Assembly (NCBI GenBank): GCA_016342745.1
Contig: JAEINT010000010.1
Location: 124,001-188,000, forward strand
Origin: Labilibaculum sp.
Lineage (GTDB): Bacteria; Bacteroidota; Bacteroidia; Bacteroidales; Marinifilaceae
DNA: 64,000 nt
Reading direction: 5' to 3'
A program made the position numbers and the translations under genes. Positions 16,241-28,682 of the stretch are shown here, piece after piece. Numbering within the stretch: position 1 is the first letter of the stretch; each line of letters starts with the position of its first letter. The notes beneath the pieces were generated by a model that was not told the DNA's origin, ran no database searches, and was given only the letters and a program-made list of their open reading frames with translations.

Positions 16241-18733
16241 ATGCCTAAAAAACCAATAATAACATTAGGTAGTATGCATGTTTGTCCGATGTGTAGTGGA
16301 ACCATTCCTCATGTTGGAGGTCCGGTTGCTGGACCTGGACAAGCAAATGTTTTGATAAATGGGAAGCCTGTGGCTACTCTTGGTGATATCTGTACCTGCT
16401 GTGGACCTCCTGATACAATTGCACAAGGTGAACCTGTAGTTTTAATAAATGGATTGCCAGTTGCTACAGTTGGCTGTTTAACTGCACATGGAGGTACGTT
16501 AATACAGGGTGAACCAAATGTGACCATCACAACAAGCGCTTCTTCTAAAAAGAGTACGGCAAAAATTAAAGACATTCCGTTTCCAGAGATCACAACTTTT
16601 GATGTGATTGGTTCTATGATTAAAGGCACATCTAAAGATTTGCAAAAAGCTAAGGAGAACATTGAAGAATTAAAAAAAGAAGCTCAAGAGCAAGATACAG
16701 GAGAAGAAGAGGAAAAGCAATTGCCCAAATTACAAGGTGAAATAATCTTTGTGAATGGATATTTAAGCGAATCATTAGGAGGAATATTAAATGCATTACT
16801 TGATATTAATCCTGATTCAAAAAAATATTTTTCAAATTTAAGTAGAGGCCACAATGTTGACGAGGAAAATCACATTAATGATGATGATATTCTAACTGCA
16901 GATGAATTGGAAGCTATTAATAATATGACTGATGCGGAAAAACTTGAAGATTCTTTTTCTATCCCATATGTGAAACTTGGGGAATCAAGAGAGGCAACTG
17001 TACCATTTCCTATTGGCTTGTCTCCGGTTCCAAATTTTATGCCTTGTAAAATAAAGTATCCAACTTTTCAAATAGGTAAATTGGGAATAGACTTGCCTAA
17101 TGTAATTAAGCCAATTCCAAAATTGACGAAAGTTGAATTAAAAGAGGTTTTTTATGGATATTGGAATCAATTGGGGAATGGTAACAGCGCTTCAAAAGTA
17201 TATGCCGATTATTTTAATGCAACGGGTAGGGAGCATTTTATAAATGGCTCTCATGGATTAGGATCGAATGCCGCACATAGGCTCGATCATGGTATTGCTT
17301 TAGGTTACCATTGGGCAAAGTACAATTGGAAAATAAAAACGAAAAAAGAAGTTGATGCTCAAAAATCAGAAAAACCCCAAATTGAAAGTTTGTCTCCTGC
17401 ATACAAACCAATTACAATTGTGATGCATAGTCAAGGAAATGCTCCAGGAGCAGGAGTTGCCCTTGGTGTTTTAAAATATGCAAAAGAACAAGGATGGGAC
17501 AAGGTACCGCTAAACATGATTTACCTTGGAGTTCATCAGCCTACGAATTTATGTGATGATGAATACGAGCGTTTTATAAATAATAAGGTTAAGTATTACG
17601 GTGTTGATAAAAATTTTTGGAATGCTGCCGTTTGGACTCCATTTTTAAGAAAGGATAAAAAAGTTCTTAAATTCTTTAATAGTATGTCCGATCTATTTAA
17701 TCCAAAGTATCATAAGTTACACCATAGAAGAGGAATTTATGAGCATCTTAAAGATCTTAACGTATTTGAGCAACTTAAAGAAAGGTCGGTTCAGTTTACG
17801 TTTGCTAACGACAGAGGTGACTTGGTAATTAGGGATGGAGATATTCCTGAAATAGACAGTGCTTGCAATCCAGATAGAGATAATAGTCTTTATAGTGTGG
17901 AGTTTCTTAGAAATGGAGAAGTTGATGACAATAAGTCAAACTCGGTTAAAAAAACAGTTCCAATTAAGGATGAAGGAAATCTATTGATACCTGCTTATTC
18001 GGCTGTACCTCGCTTATTTGTCGAGGAAAAGGATGGAGTAGTTATCAAAGAATATTGGGATGATTATAATAGTGTTGCAACCGATTTTGGGAATGCTGCT
18101 GCAAAATTTGTAAGCCTTCAGAAGAAGTTCAAATTTACTTATAAAGATATATTATCACCAATTGGAAGAAAAACCAAGCAGGCCATAGAAATTTATATTA
18201 GTCATAAACAGATGCTTTATCATTATGGTCGCATTCAGGAAGCCGATTTGTACGCACACTTTAGCCCTGTTGAATTTATAATGGATGGTGATATTTTAAA
18301 GCATTCTGATTTTGATGATAAATTAGGCCAAGGGAGCATTTGGGAGCGAATTAAAAAAATGGGGGAGAATAAGTTTTATAGGGTTGAATATGGGGATGAA
18401 GGAGAGAAGGAAAAAGTACCTGATGATGAGATTAGAAGAAAAGCAAAAGAATATATTAATGATACTGAAAATGAACAAAAATTAATTAGTACTGCAATTG
18501 CAGACACTTTCTATGTGAAAAATGTAATTAATGCATTTGTTGATGGGGATGAGGGTGCTGAGGAAGAATTGTATGAAGAAAAGGCTGTGAATTCTAGGTA
18601 TAAAGAAATAGAGCGACTTCAAAAACTTTTTGGTGAAGATGTTGTAAATCAAATAAATAAAGATTTAGTTGATGAGATGATAATGCAACAAGACAAGACC
18701 AGAGTTGATAAGCCAAAAATCATAAAACCATGA
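16241..18733 (+). CDS. PAAR-domain protein with C-terminal alpha/beta-hydrolase-like domain, putative type VI effector
   Basis: An 830-residue protein without signal peptide. Residues 1-95 are a PAAR domain that caps the VgrG spike of type VI secretion: glycine/proline turns such as GQANVLINGKPVATLGD and GEPVVLINGLPVATVG, with Cys14, Cys17 and a CTCC cluster. A charged linker follows (about 125-165). The middle domain has a nucleophile-elbow motif ITIVMHSQGNAPGAG with Ser397, as in lipases of the Tle effectors, and an early FVNGY strand. The charged C-terminal ~300 residues are unrecognised. The stop overlaps the start of the next gene by ATGA, typical of an effector-immunity pair. No VgrG, Hcp or sheath genes are nearby. 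Lipase activity is inferred from the elbow alone. Confidence 0.72.
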   Translation: MPKKPIITLGSMHVCPMCSGTIPHVGGPVAGPGQANVLINGKPVATLGDICTCCGPPDTIAQGEPVVLINGLPVATVGCLTAHGGTLIQGEPNVTITTSASSKKSTAKIKDIPFPEITTFDVIGSMIKGTSKDLQKAKENIEELKKEAQEQDTGEEEEKQLPKLQGEIIFVNGYLSESLGGILNALLDINPDSKKYFSNLSRGHNVDEENHINDDDILTADELEAINNMTDAEKLEDSFSIPYVKLGESREATVPFPIGLSPVPNFMPCKIKYPTFQIGKLGIDLPNVIKPIPKLTKVELKEVFYGYWNQLGNGNSASKVYADYFNATGREHFINGSHGLGSNAAHRLDHGIALGYHWAKYNWKIKTKKEVDAQKSEKPQIESLSPAYKPITIVMHSQGNAPGAGVALGVLKYAKEQGWDKVPLNMIYLGVHQPTNLCDDEYERFINNKVKYYGVDKNFWNAAVWTPFLRKDKKVLKFFNSMSDLFNPKYHKLHHRRGIYEHLKDLNVFEQLKERSVQFTFANDRGDLVIRDGDIPEIDSACNPDRDNSLYSVEFLRNGEVDDNKSNSVKKTVPIKDEGNLLIPAYSAVPRLFVEEKDGVVIKEYWDDYNSVATDFGNAAAKFVSLQKKFKFTYKDILSPIGRKTKQAIEIYISHKQMLYHYGRIQEADLYAHFSPVEFIMDGDILKHSDFDDKLGQGSIWERIKKMGENKFYRVEYGDEGEKEKVPDDEIRRKAKEYINDTENEQKLISTAIADTFYVKNVINAFVDGDEGAEEELYEEKAVNSRYKEIERLQKLFGEDVVNQINKDLVDEMIMQQDKTRVDKPKIIKP

Positions 18734-22919: not shown

Positions 22920-24530
22920 ATGATATTTAATCGTAAGAAAAAGCAAACAGAAGAACTGCTAAGTTCTTTTGGCGAGCTAAAAGATGCATCCTGTGATTTT
23001 AATTTAATTGAGAAGTATTTTCAAAATAAGGATCATTCGAAAAGCTTACAGGTATTGTCTGATAAAACTTGTAATGACTTGGATTTTGAAGAGTTGTTTA
23101 TGTTTTTGGATCGTACAAGTTCAAAAACAGGTCAGCAATTTCTGTATAATAGGCTTAGAGAAATCCCTACTGATTCGAGTCAGATAAAATTAGACGAAGA
23201 ATTGATTGAACGTTTTACAGCAGATGACAACTTTCGTGTAATGATTCAAACTGAGCTTAAAAGGTTAGGCGATCGCGAAGCTTATTATATCCCAGATTTA
23301 TTTCAGGAAGCACATTTAGAAAAACCAAAGTGGTTTTTTGTTATGCCTATGCTTTCTTTTGCAAGTATTCTATCTGTTATTCTGATGCCATTTAATTTTA
23401 ATTTACTTTTTGTTATTATTGGTGTTTTTATTATTAATATCTGTTTCCATTTATGGAATAAGAAAAACCTTTCGACCTATTCTGGTTCTATTCCTCAGCT
23501 ATTGCAATTAAAGCATGTTGCTAGTATACTGTTTAAAAATAAAGAACTAAAAGATTTAAATCCGCAATTAGGTAGATCAATTACTGTAATTGATCAGGTT
23601 AAAAACAGGATGCAATTTTTTAAACTAGGATCGAATATTGAAGGTGATTTACGAGTTGTGTTTTGGTCTTATATGGAGTTATTAAAGATATTGTTCTTAT
23701 TAGAACCCTTGTTATTGTTCGGAGTGTTGCGTCGCTTGGAGAACAAGCGTAAGGAGATTGAGGACGTTTATACATTTGTTGGACAGATTGATGCTTTGAT
23801 TTCGATAGCTTCTTTACGAAGAGGCTTGGATTCTTGGTGTATTCCAAATATTTGTGAGAATAATAGCCCAATAGATGCAGAAGAGATTTACCATCCCTTA
23901 ATTATTGATTGCGTTCGAAATAATATTAATGTAGAAGATAAATCCATATTACTAACGGGCTCGAACATGTCGGGTAAAACTTCTTTTATTCGTGCCATTG
24001 GACTTAATGTAATTACTGGTCTTACTATTAATACATGTTTTGCAAAAAGAATATCTATTCCTCGCATTCGGATTTACTCTGCAATCCGCATTAGCGATGA
24101 TTTAATGAACGACAAGAGCTATTATTTCGAAGAGGTTCTTACTATTAAAAACATGATTGACAAGTCGTGTAATGGAAAGGCTAGCTTGTTCTTGCTCGAT
24201 GAGATTTTTAAAGGAACCAATACTGTCGAAAGAATTTCTGCTGGCAAAGCGGTATTGTCCGCTCTTTCAAAAAACAACAATAAAGTATTTGTTTCTACTC
24301 ACGATATCGAATTGACAGACTTATTAGAGAGGGATTATGAATTGTATCATTTTAGTGAAATTGTAAGTGATAAAACTGTTGATTTTGATTACAAATTGAA
24401 AGAAGGCAAACTAAAAAATAGAAACGCAATTAGAATTCTTCAAATTAACGATTATCCAGAAGATGTTGTTCGTGAGGCGATGACATTATCGGAGGAATTG
24501 GATAATTGTTATTCGACCGTGAATGCCTAA
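22920..24530 (+). CDS. MutS-like ATPase with membrane segments
   Basis: A 536-residue protein whose C-terminal third is a MutS family ATPase: Walker A GSNMSGKTS (347-355), the YYFEEV and ISDDLMNDKS segment, Walker B LFLLDEIFKGTNT (about 422-434), and VFVSTHD. The N-terminal half has the lever-like helices seen in MutS2-type relatives, but the mismatch-reading domain I and connector are absent. Two adjacent hydrophobic helices (about 138-179) and a third hydrophobic run (about 250-270) suggest membrane attachment. Such short MutS-related proteins are found in Bacteroidota; they are not shown to do mismatch repair. It lacks the Smr nuclease tail of MutS2. Confidence 0.82.
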   Translation: MIFNRKKKQTEELLSSFGELKDASCDFNLIEKYFQNKDHSKSLQVLSDKTCNDLDFEELFMFLDRTSSKTGQQFLYNRLREIPTDSSQIKLDEELIERFTADDNFRVMIQTELKRLGDREAYYIPDLFQEAHLEKPKWFFVMPMLSFASILSVILMPFNFNLLFVIIGVFIINICFHLWNKKNLSTYSGSIPQLLQLKHVASILFKNKELKDLNPQLGRSITVIDQVKNRMQFFKLGSNIEGDLRVVFWSYMELLKILFLLEPLLLFGVLRRLENKRKEIEDVYTFVGQIDALISIASLRRGLDSWCIPNICENNSPIDAEEIYHPLIIDCVRNNINVEDKSILLTGSNMSGKTSFIRAIGLNVITGLTINTCFAKRISIPRIRIYSAIRISDDLMNDKSYYFEEVLTIKNMIDKSCNGKASLFLLDEIFKGTNTVERISAGKAVLSALSKNNNKVFVSTHDIELTDLLERDYELYHFSEIVSDKTVDFDYKLKEGKLKNRNAIRILQINDYPEDVVREAMTLSEELDNCYSTVNA

Positions 24531-25703: not shown

Positions 25704-26463
25704 GTGTAAATGCTTATGTTTTGTAAATATGAAATTACAATAGAAATTTAAATTAACAAAATATTTATTCTAAATGCTATTGATGAACAGACTTGAATTA
25801 CGAGTTAAGTTTTTAAGTACAGAGGAATAGCATATTTATAGGAAAAATAATAACTATTGAAAACGTTTCACTTACAATTGTTGATAGGAGAGATTTTGTT
25901 GATTGCAGAACGGAATTGATCTTTATTCTGCTGGAAATCCTATTCATTGATGATGATCTCTTCATTTCTCTCGTAAAAAGATACTTCAACAAGCATTTTT
26001 TTAGTGTATTCACGATGAATTAATAGCTTCGCAGGTCTGTTTGTTCAATTTCAGCCTTCGATGATGCGTATAACAAGGCTGTTTACTCCAAATTTCTCGT
26101 GAATTTGGCTTTCCATACCTGTAAAATGCAAATCTGCCCCTTGTTTTTGCCATCGCAGCTGTGTTTTTAACTATAACCACCCTTGTTTTCAAGTTTACAC
26201 ATCCGAAAAATGGGCCAACTAAGCTTAGTTGGTACATAAACATACCTGTCAATGGCAAATTCAAGCATGATTTTGACAACTGCAGCCTTGTCGAAGACCT
26301 TTTTCACATGTGAATTTGGCAGTGTAGCTGTGTTGGACTAAAAATCAGCCTTCGTTTTCAGATTACGGATTCGTTATTGAATAGGTAATATGCTTTATGA
26401 TAATTATAAGATATTCGTTAGCTTTGGTATTGTTAAATGATTTTGCTTAATTAAATATTGAAA
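25704..26463. other. 760-base gap rich in palindromes, no convincing gene
   Basis: The gap between the zincin and the transposase holds an 18-bp perfect palindrome CCAACTAAGCTTAGTTGG (26214-26231), CAGCCTT (about 26050) paired with AAGGCTG (about 26077), and CCAAATT / AATTTGG around 26090-26110. Fragments recur within it: GTGAATTTGGC twice, AGCTGTGTT twice, and CAGCCTTCG twice. A 90-codon minus-strand frame over 26010-26279 exists but reads through these repeats and has no recognisable domain. A -7-like TAGCTTTG at 26419-26426 precedes the transposase gene. It looks like eroded mobile or cassette-boundary DNA. Confidence 0.45.
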
Positions 26464-27135
26464 ATGCAAGGATCAGAACCTCTTGAATTCGGACAGTACT
26501 ATCATATTTACAATCGTGGAATAAATGGTTGCGACTTGTTTACAAGTGAAGAAAATTATCAATGTTTTTTGAGTTTGTATGAAAAATATATTGATCCAAT
26601 TGCCGATACATTTGCTTTTGTATTGATGCCAAACCACTTTCATATTCTGATAAGATTAAAAGACGAAATTTGTTATAAATACACAAACGCTAACAGGTCT
26701 ATCGACGCTGTCAGGTTTAATGAAATAAAATGGGAAACCAAAAACCTGTCAGCGTCTGCAAGACCTGACAGCGTTAAAATACCGAAACCACACCTTCACT
26801 TTTCGCACTTCTTTAATGCATACACCAAATATTTAAATAAGCGTAACAAGCGCCATGGCTCTCTTTTCGAACGTGCATTTAAACGCAAGTTGATTTCCGA
26901 CGAAGCATATTTTAAAAACTTGGTTTTGTATATTCATCGTAACCCAGTGCATCACGGATTTTGTGAGCATCCAATAGAATACGGTTGGAGTAGTTATTTG
27001 AGTTGCATATCCTCTAAGCCTACCAAAATAAGAAGAGAAGTGGTTCTTGAATGGTTTTGCGATAAAGAGAATTTTGAATATTGTCATGAGCAATTAATGC
27101 CCGTTGATGAAATGGAAGAATATTTGGAATTGTAA
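26464..27135 (+). CDS. REP-associated tyrosine transposase (RAYT, Y1/HUH type)
   Basis: A single-strand DNA nuclease of the Y1 transposase fold. Residue numbers follow ATG 26464 (223 residues): start YYHIYNRGINGCDLF, HUH motif MPNHFHILIR (His58, His60) and the catalytic-tyrosine helix YFKNLVLYIHRNPVHHG (probably Tyr156), then GWSSYLS. RAYTs process REP palindromes. Residues ~78-105 are encoded by an inverted repeat (26695-26766), so a REP-like element sits inside the coding region in frame. The 3' part of the gene is tandemly repeated twice more downstream. A TTG lies two codons upstream; the ATG is preferred. Confidence 0.85.
   Translation: MQGSEPLEFGQYYHIYNRGINGCDLFTSEENYQCFLSLYEKYIDPIADTFAFVLMPNHFHILIRLKDEICYKYTNANRSIDAVRFNEIKWETKNLSASARPDSVKIPKPHLHFSHFFNAYTKYLNKRNKRHGSLFERAFKRKLISDEAYFKNLVLYIHRNPVHHGFCEHPIEYGWSSYLSCISSKPTKIRREVVLEWFCDKENFEYCHEQLMPVDEMEEYLEL
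26695..26766. repeat. REP-like hairpin inside the RAYT coding sequence
   Basis: Left arm 26695-26718 and right arm 26742-26766 form an imperfect 24-bp inverted repeat built on CGCTGTCAGGTTT / AAACCTGTCAGCG. A third copy of the core, ACCTGACAGCG, follows at 26763-26773. The same hairpin recurs in every repeat unit (starting near 27144, 27593 and 28042). Confidence 0.8.
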
Positions 27136-27141
27136 ACCCCG

Positions 27142-27584
27142 ACAGGTCTATCGACGCTGTCAGGTTTAATGAAATAAAATGGGAAACCAAAAACCTGTCA
27201 GCGTCTGCAAGACCTGACAGCGTTAAAATACCGAAACCACACCTTCACTTTTCGCACTTCTTTAATGCATACACCAAATATTTAAATAAGCGTAACAAGC
27301 GCCATGGCTCTCTTTTCGAACGTGCATTTAAACGCAAGTTGATTTCCGACGAAGCATATTTTAAAAACTTGGTTTTGTATATTCATCGTAACCCAGTGCA
27401 TCACGGATTTTGTGAGCATCCAATAGAATACGGTTGGAGTAGTTATTTGAGTTGCATATCCTCTAAGCCTACCAAAATAAGAAGAGAAGTGGTTCTTGAA
27501 TGGTTTTGCGATAAAGAGAATTTTGAATATTGTCATGAGCAATTAATGCCCGTTGATGAAATGGAAGAATATTTGGAATTGTAA
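27142..27584 (+). pseudogene. RAYT 3' fragment, repeat copy 2
   Basis: Identical to the 3' two-thirds of the upstream transposase gene but lacking the start region and the HUH motif. The longest frame uses a TTG inside the old gene and encodes only the tyrosine-helix part, so it cannot be an active transposase. It ends in the same EEYLEL-stop. Confidence 0.85.
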
Positions 27585-27590
27585 ACCCCG

Positions 27591-28033
27591 ACAGGTCTAT
27601 CGACGCTGTCAGGTTTAATGAAATAAAATGGGAAACCAAAAACCTGTCAGCGTCTGCAAGACCTGACAGCGTTAAAATACCGAAACCACACCTTCACTTT
27701 TCGCACTTCTTTAATGCATACACCAAATATTTAAATAAGCGTAACAAGCGCCATGGCTCTCTTTTCGAACGTGCATTTAAACGCAAGTTGATTTCCGACG
27801 AAGCATATTTTAAAAACTTGGTTTTGTATATTCATCGTAACCCAGTGCATCACGGATTTTGTGAGCATCCAATAGAATACGGTTGGAGTAGTTATTTGAG
27901 TTGCATATCCTCTAAGCCTACCAAAATAAGAAGAGAAGTGGTTCTTGAATGGTTTTGCGATAAAGAGAATTTTGAATATTGTCATGAGCAATTAATGCCC
28001 GTTGATGAAATGGAAGAATATTTGGAATTGTAA
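27591..28033 (+). pseudogene. RAYT 3' fragment, repeat copy 3
   Basis: Second extra copy of the same fragment, apparently without base changes. It is followed by the 124-bp truncated fourth unit, which carries the hairpin and the first codons of the PKPHLHFSHF block only. Confidence 0.85.
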
Positions 28034-28256
28034 ACCCCGACAGGTCTATCGACGCTGTCAGGTTTAATGAAATAAAATGGGAAACCAAAAACCTGTCAGC
28101 GTCTGCAAGACCTGACAGCGTTAAAATACCGAAACCACACCTTCACTTTTCGCACTTCTTTAAAGATTAACTCAGATTAGTACTTGTGACAAAAAAAGCT
28201 GTAGTTTTGCAATTCTCATTTAAGGTAAGAGCATCAATCAGCATAAAATAATAACA

Positions 28257-28682
28257 ATGAATATAAAAATAGTCGATTACGGAATTTGTAAAGCGATAGG
28301 AGAAACGAAGAAAGATATTGTTCGGGCTAGTGCAACAGGATACTATTTGCATTCTGATGATATGGAGTTTGTAGAAAAAACTGATCTTATTCATCCTAAG
28401 CCAGGCTTGAGTTTTGGAATAAGCTATCAGTTCGAACAGGATTCGGAAGAGGCGAAATTGGTTGATTATGTGTGCAGAATAAGACATCCTAAGTTGGTGA
28501 ATCCAACAAGCAAGGAACAATTTACTGAATGCTCAGAGGAAAAAGATTGTTATACTGATGAGTTAGGCTATGACTTCTACACGTTTGCATTAGACTGGGA
28601 AATGCAGCTAGGAGAATGGGTGTTCGAAATCATTTGTGATGACAAGATCATGTGCAGTCAGACATTTTTATTGAGAGAATAA
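28257..28682 (+). CDS. DUF3859 domain protein
   Basis: A 141-residue cytoplasmic protein with the DUF3859 layout: VDYGICKAIGE at the start, SATGYYL, then GLSFGISYQFE, VCRIRHPKLVNP and a C-terminal WEMQLGEWVFEI...CSQTFLL strand pair, suggesting a single immunoglobulin-like beta sandwich. No enzymatic residues are evident. It starts 93 bases after the last repeat fragment; a -7-like TAGTTTTG at 28202-28209 could be its promoter. A hairpin terminator follows. Confidence 0.78.
   Translation: MNIKIVDYGICKAIGETKKDIVRASATGYYLHSDDMEFVEKTDLIHPKPGLSFGISYQFEQDSEEAKLVDYVCRIRHPKLVNPTSKEQFTECSEEKDCYTDELGYDFYTFALDWEMQLGEWVFEIICDDKIMCSQTFLLRE

Follow-up and report, generated by a model that had tools for sequence, protein, structure and literature searches.

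How does a transposase gene come to be followed by perfect tandem copies of its own 3' half? The question is raised by a locus of Labilibaculum sp., studied here within a 64,000-nucleotide stretch of DNA (the window). There, a putative RAYT/TnpAREP gene carries a palindromic repeat (REPIN) within its reading frame, and repeated units start at this hairpin.

The tandem array and the gene it repeats

Tandem Repeats Finder, run on the window, returned an array at 26693-28163 with a period of 449, 3.3 copies, 100% matches, and 0% indels. Its score was 2942, and the other three rows of the window scored 50-56. Units 2 and 3 showed 0 differences from unit 1, and the fourth piece consisted of exactly 124 identical bases. 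The perfect 449-bp array of three units and a fourth piece given in a preliminary description of this DNA is thus real in the sequence. The array starts inside the RAYT ORF, at the 5' foot of the hairpin, and unit 1 is the natural 3' part of an intact gene. At the hairpin foot, ACAGG is preceded by AAACGCTA in copy 1 and by TAAACCCCG in the later copies. The right end lies 41 bp beyond the hairpin, within copied coding sequence, and therefore the hairpin does not mark the right-end junction; the earlier statement that a hairpin stands at every junction holds for all unit starts and fails at position 28163.

Several lines of evidence identified the gene. The encoded protein matched NCBIfam NF047646 (REP_Tyr_transpos) with an E value of 4.9e-16 and 58.9 bits, under the cut-off of 80, and 6/6 members matched this family. 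Pfam Y1_Tnp gave nothing at 0.001 for the window protein and an E value of 0.069 at a laxer threshold, at which 5/6 members matched (best 9.5e-5). When the AlphaFold model of the protein (pLDDT 83.2) was searched with Foldseek, the top PDB match was 4er8, a TnpAREP (E 1.5e-6), followed by 2f4f, an IS200 transposase (E 4.3e-4). Residues N57, H58, and Y156 were invariant across 30 sequences, and H60 was present in at least 90% of them. From its sequence and model, the gene is predicted to encode a RAYT/TnpAREP transposase, in agreement with the preliminary placement of the array in the 3' half of such a gene. No further RAYT was found in the window genome, where the 4 matches at E <=0.001 corresponded to the gene and its array copies.

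The slices were also considered as truncated proteins and rejected as such: although the frame stays open in units 2 and 3, each has a listed ORF of just 81 aa, starting from TTG. A scan for promoters and terminators gave 10 promoter-like sites, compared with 8.1 in shuffles, and 1 terminator-like site, compared with 1.4.

Table 1. Features of the RAYT locus and its surroundings (positions in the window).
Feature	Position	Strand	Remarks
Left flank	25940..26398	.	94.3% identical to G070, which continues into an RNase H gene missing here
Predicted RAYT/TnpAREP gene	26464..27135	+	ORF, 223 aa from ATG; HuH motif NHFH at residue 57, Tyr motif YIHRNP at residue 156
Internal REPIN	26686..26775	+	Two inverted REPs, in frame, residues ~75-104; between HuH and Tyr motifs
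Unit 1	26693..27141	+	449 bp: REPIN, 3' part of RAYT, stop, ACCCCG
Junction motif AACCCCGA	27135..27142, again at 27584 and 28033	+	Present ahead of DUF3859 in G011 and G057 too
Unit 2	27142..27590	+	Identical to unit 1
Unit 3	27591..28039	+	Identical to unit 1
Fourth piece	28040..28163	+	124 bp, identical to the start of the unit; right end within copied coding sequence
Short joint AGATTAAC	28164..28171	+	Between fourth piece and DUF3859 upstream region
Upstream region of DUF3859 gene	28172..28256	+	Homologous to G070 from 28172 on
DUF3859 gene, right neighbour	28257..28682	+	Pfam PF12975, E 1.8e-8

The internal REPIN and known REP systems

The DNA of positions 26680-26830 folded with a z-score of -7.3, better than all 200 shuffles, which bears out the REP-like hairpin reported at the unit starts. 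The two REPs form a long fold-back, and each also folds alone, the left one weakly. Residues ~71-100 were of low confidence in the AlphaFold model, as for a peripheral loop, and the REPIN is accordingly modeled in an exposed loop of the RAYT protein; its reading frame was the same in the relatives compared, among which L087 was not counted.

Covariation was counted in 20 rows picked by eye from the loops of one hairpin type, with identical rows used once (19 distinct) and the degenerate row of locus L078 kept in the set. In the left hairpin (13 pairs), 93.9% of the cells were paired in the 19 distinct relative rows. Five of the 13 pairs had changed on both sides, compared with 1.7 in shuffles, and 11 cells carried both-sided changes, compared with 2.2 in shuffles (0/500 shuffles as high). 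Relatedness inflates counts of this kind, but at most 3 such cells were seen in slid controls. Further pair types were no more numerous than in shuffles (452/500 as high). The covariation suggests that the hairpin is maintained.

GTAG, GTGG, and CTAC were absent from 26640-26830, and the sole CCAC lay at 26788, 13 nt beyond the hairpin. When the 83-nt REPIN was searched against the window genome, 4 of the 29 matches listed were full length, all of them within the array, so there was no sign of recent REPIN dispersal. Two clear partial copies (E 6e-8 and 7e-7) were located ~49 kb away on the same contig, with weak matches elsewhere. Single REPs of the same family remain on contig C7 of the closest genome (G070), as they do near C43:101.5-101.9 kb of the window genome (L061).

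Internal REPs in transposase genes were formerly known as an oddity. An in-frame internal REP is not new, because transposase genes of TnpAREP subclass 2.4 (RAYT group 4) are described with such an insertion (PMC6006769). The window locus resembles that subclass, as presented there, in its HuH transposase with NHFH and in having the in-frame REP within a variable peripheral loop, between the HuH and Tyr motifs; REPs flanking the genes and Bacteroidetes among the hosts are further shared features. However, the window hairpin has no GT[AG]G foot, and the window protein reads GSLFE at residue 132, that is, FE where subclass 2.4 has the WQ motif of guide recognition; on these two features the locus falls outside subclass 2.4 in the strict sense. 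For subclass 2.6, the same source describes Bacteroidetes hosts, hairpins without GT[AG]G, a short insertion between alphaC and beta4, and the WQ motif; the hairpin type of the window could fit this subclass, but the FE motif does not. Tandem gene slices are unmentioned in the main text of PMC6006769, in which the word "tandem" occurs 0 times.

The tandem REPIN clusters described for Pseudomonas fluorescens SBW25 (PMC3116915) similarly have units composed of a REPIN plus flanking sequence and also lie beside RAYT genes. Unlike in these clusters, the window units are identical, and the sequence flanking the REPIN in them is the 3' part of the RAYT itself. Rickettsia palindromic elements (PMC3733652) likewise stand in frame within ORFs, although the available text of that source does not describe them as lying in a cognate transposase gene. 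Among the titles and abstract openings of the part of the literature covered, none described tandem slices of a RAYT gene. The part that is new would be that a REP-bounded tandem amplification here appears to take the RAYT's own gene half.

Junctions beside a missing RNase H gene and the origin of the array

In G070, which is labelled the same species and yet has DNA only 91-94% identical at the locus, the order was left flank, RNase H gene (Pfam E 2.3e-28), and DUF3859, with no match to the RAYT. Divergence of the window from G070 was 5.7% on the left flank (459 columns) and 8.7% on the right (5966 columns). Among the 5 genomes searched, RNase H orthologues were found in G070 (the query itself), G011 (82%), and G057 (62%), and none was found in G021 or in the window genome, whose two matches were 31% identical paralogues. 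Relatives carry the RNase H gene at this place and the window genome lacks it; therefore, the array ends where the RNase H gene should be. In G057, the order was RAYT, RNase H gene, and DUF3859, with no REPIN after the RAYT stop, whereas a REPIN lay ~9 nt past the stop in G011 and a REP at the same place in G021. The gene names RNase H, PAAR, and M13 peptidase were checked with Pfam.

Further differences in gene order were seen nearby. A gene with a MutS domain precedes the left flank and the RAYT in the window (22920-24530), directly follows the RAYT in G011 (L064 13097-14704), and follows a RAYT remnant in G021 (L164 7401-8999); RAYT and MutS have therefore changed order within a few kb. In G021, the REP, the gene start, a large internal deletion, the gene end, and a further REP were read by eye at L164 8980-9500, followed directly by MutS. 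The protein encoded at window positions 16241-18733 has 830 aa and carries a PAAR motif at its N terminus (Pfam E 2.3e-18), and small unknown genes lie after it; G021 is without this stretch, and its M13 peptidase gene lies less than 1 kb from its MutS gene.

The unit junction reads TTGTA-AACCCCGA-CAGG, with AACCCCGA linking the RAYT stop to the next hairpin. Outside these junctions, AACCCCGA was found at no other place in the 64-kb window, and ACCCCG occurred in 2/3108 sampled 60-nt windows. The motif, short at 8 nt, was carried upstream of DUF3859 by 2/4 relatives (G011 and G057); G070 has AATCTCAAACA there, with a longest junction match of 6 nt, and G021 matches 5 nt. The right end of the array rejoins the DUF3859 upstream region 11-19 nt further on, depending on the placing of the return, after a joint of ~8 nt. 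Both array junctions point to a single place of ~20 nt ahead of the DUF3859 gene. A REP foot is also similar to the junction (AAACGCTG versus AAACCCCG, 2 mismatches), a resemblance that 224/62188 window positions match equally well.

A single tandem duplication of one segment was considered and rejected as the origin. The array can be written as L U'V U'V U'V U' R, with U' of 124 bp and V of 325 bp, and a one-copy ancestor would already have contained U' twice; a second origin for U' is therefore needed. As the simplest reading, we propose one repair event in which the RNase H gene was lost and a 124-bp copy of the RAYT hairpin region entered the joint, after which the 124-bp repeats expanded; we give this reading an even chance. 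The starting locus would have been a RAYT gene with its own in-frame REPIN, from which the DNA between the RAYT stop and DUF3859, including the RNase H gene, would have been lost in the lineage of this strain. Template switching would have produced the repair joint. Beyond the RAYT stop, the growing strand would first have acquired ~8 nt (AACCCCGA) from the sequence upstream of DUF3859 and then, by way of a short microhomology, switched to the REPIN 5' foot within the RAYT; once 124 bp had been copied, it would have rejoined the sequence upstream of DUF3859, 11-19 nt farther along. The microhomology of the jump would be ACA, read by eye from G011; G057 has ATA. Two identical 124-bp direct repeats flanking 325 bp of the RAYT 3' end would have resulted, between which unequal exchange or replication slippage may have multiplied the 449-bp unit. 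We infer the template switching, the expansion step, and the order of events from the junctions described above, together with the G070 locus, in which the RNase H gene stands between the left flank and DUF3859. As for a fresh copy, no differences separate the four hairpin copies or the 41 bp of coding sequence that follow them.

An older REPIN directly behind the RAYT stop, as in G011 and G021, could instead have recombined unequally with the internal REPIN to produce the array, a later deletion then truncating the last unit and removing the RNase H gene. Loop sequence was found downstream of the gene in 15/41 hairpin-loop loci (among the best 80 of at least 521), and the later units and copy 1 have unlike feet (CCCG and GCTA, respectively), as would be the case with a second REPIN. 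However, the sequence upstream of DUF3859 in G011 and G057 is a closer match to the foot motif, the fourth piece continues for 41 bp of coding sequence after the REPIN with 0 differences, and the G057 RAYT adjoins the RNase H gene without a downstream REPIN. Because of the G057 locus and the junction motif, we ranked this exchange lower than the repair event and regard it as rather unlikely.

The preliminary description had suggested nicking by the RAYT protein at its own internal REP, followed by rolling or slipped replication, as a source of the ladder. In a rolling process, which could also proceed through a single-strand circle, the partial last unit would be the end of the roll, and the fractional unit and the unit start at the hairpin foot would both fit; TnpAREP is reported to cut single-stranded REP DNA in vitro (PMC8266576). 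The E. coli enzyme needs a GT[AG]G foot according to the same source, but the window hairpin has none. Instead of falling at a REP, the right end forms a scar within unrelated upstream DNA at the site of a missing gene, and the full-length REPINs among the matches listed were confined to the array. A piece of the adjacent region together with short microhomologies, beside a lost gene, explains the junctions better, and we consider nicking by RAYT quite improbable. Template switching and unequal exchange are enough to account for the array without RAYT catalysis.

The array most likely goes back to a copying error at the hairpin while a deletion was being repaired, and it is a clean example of a known instability and not a new machine. 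In E. coli, 22/90 novel amplification-related junctions were reported at REPs, and hairpin-provoked template switching was proposed for them (PMC3161906). The window array shares with enterobacterial REP-junction duplications and amplifications (PMC3161906; Shyamala 1990, cited in PMC11708052) endpoints at REPs and short microhomology. The events of PMC3161906 are larger and come from laboratory selections, whereas the window array is small, natural, and starts inside a transposase gene. A likely consequence of an internal hairpin would be that part of the transposase gene itself becomes an amplifiable unit.

The array copies showed 0 differences over 1022 sites compared (rule-of-three upper bound ~0.3%), so that the old substitutions named earlier as evidence against recent amplification were absent. 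Compared with the flank divergence of 5.7% and 8.7% from G070, this identity suggests that the copies are young, provided that the assembly is right and that gene conversion has not erased differences. The earlier view of a recent amplification is upheld under that proviso, and its further suggestion of ongoing copy-number change is not judgeable from one draft.

The unit number of 3.3 is unproven, as an assembler loop via the 124-bp exact repeat could yield the same contig, and any expansion past a single additional repeat could be an artefact of assembly. In that case, the chromosome might carry one 325-bp segment between two 124-bp repeats, or some other number, and either origin would fit; we regard this as a considerable possibility, short of an even one. 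The draft of the window genome comprises 59 contigs and gave no match in searches for 16S and 23S rRNA, and one contig of G058 ends within the REP of its RAYT. Two 124-bp exact repeats would be enough for a graph loop, with perfect identity then being automatic. However, the missing rRNA is weak evidence on the assembly because the same searches also missed in 5/14 and 4/14 control genomes, and the joints and the RNase H absence are independent of copy number. The joints are the firmer part of the locus, and copy numbers of such arrays in draft genomes are untrustworthy.

RAYT slices in other Bacteroidota

RAYT loci were compared using 80 named loci, the best 80 of at least 521 confirmed ones; their counts therefore describe close relatives only. 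All 80 were kept in the loop and flank count, with L126 trimmed to its complete gene copy. For L084, L126, and L147, other frames were tried, and residual stops were entered as X in the alignment. Loop z-scores were obtained from 100 single-base shuffles each. The loop folded as DNA at z <= -3 in 41/80 loci. Among these 41, the loop sequence was found again within 600 bp outside the gene in 24 (21 upstream, 15 downstream, 12 both), compared with 4/39 of the others. The gene's 5' core recurred in the flanks of 2/80 loci and its 3' core in 0/80, so the usually recurring part is the hairpin and not the gene.

The preliminary description had called for a search for the same array in sister strains. 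G070 had no RAYT match, and similar hairpin-bounded slices, some of them decayed, were found in G011, G058, L077, and L126. In L077, a second 5' half (90.2% over 388 columns) extends through the whole internal REPIN, and in L126 (Mariniphaga anaerophila) the 5' half is repeated with a period of 334 (95.7%) and ends at its REP; both REP edges were read by eye. The single-contig genome G011 carries two 5' slices, with a period of ~204, upstream of its RAYT and decayed copies of REPIN plus gene 3' end 7-11 kb away, and G058 carries a decayed 3' slice ahead of its MutS gene. No 3' slices were found among the 80 named loci, which leaves the window, G011, and G058 as the 3'-slice cases. With 5' slices in L077, L126, and G011, either gene half can therefore be involved.

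These cases could be stages of one cycle in which Bacteroidota RAYT genes with their own REPIN are split-prone and shed non-autonomous pieces, the halves, each adjoining a hairpin, being repeatedly copied as REP-bounded slices. The window would then be the young stage, the G011 5' slices, L077, and L126 intermediate ones, and the G011 3' slices and G058 decayed ones. REPs often stand both before and after such RAYT genes, with slices in tandem or nearby. We offer this generalization tentatively and think it unlikely to hold. With a near relative without the array and others at different stages, the birth of a REP-bounded tandem array may be traceable almost base by base.

Two further arrangements were observed among the named loci. 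In Maribellus sp. CM-23 (L151 3943-6365), a second RAYT copy (96-97%) lies ~1.35 kb downstream and is interrupted by ~300 bp, with ~10 bp of the gene repeated at the ends of the interruption, which looks like an insertion with target duplication. At L123 (3562-5462), REP arrays with a period of 92 stand on both sides of the RAYT, with 3.3 and 3.7 copies at 86% and 93%.
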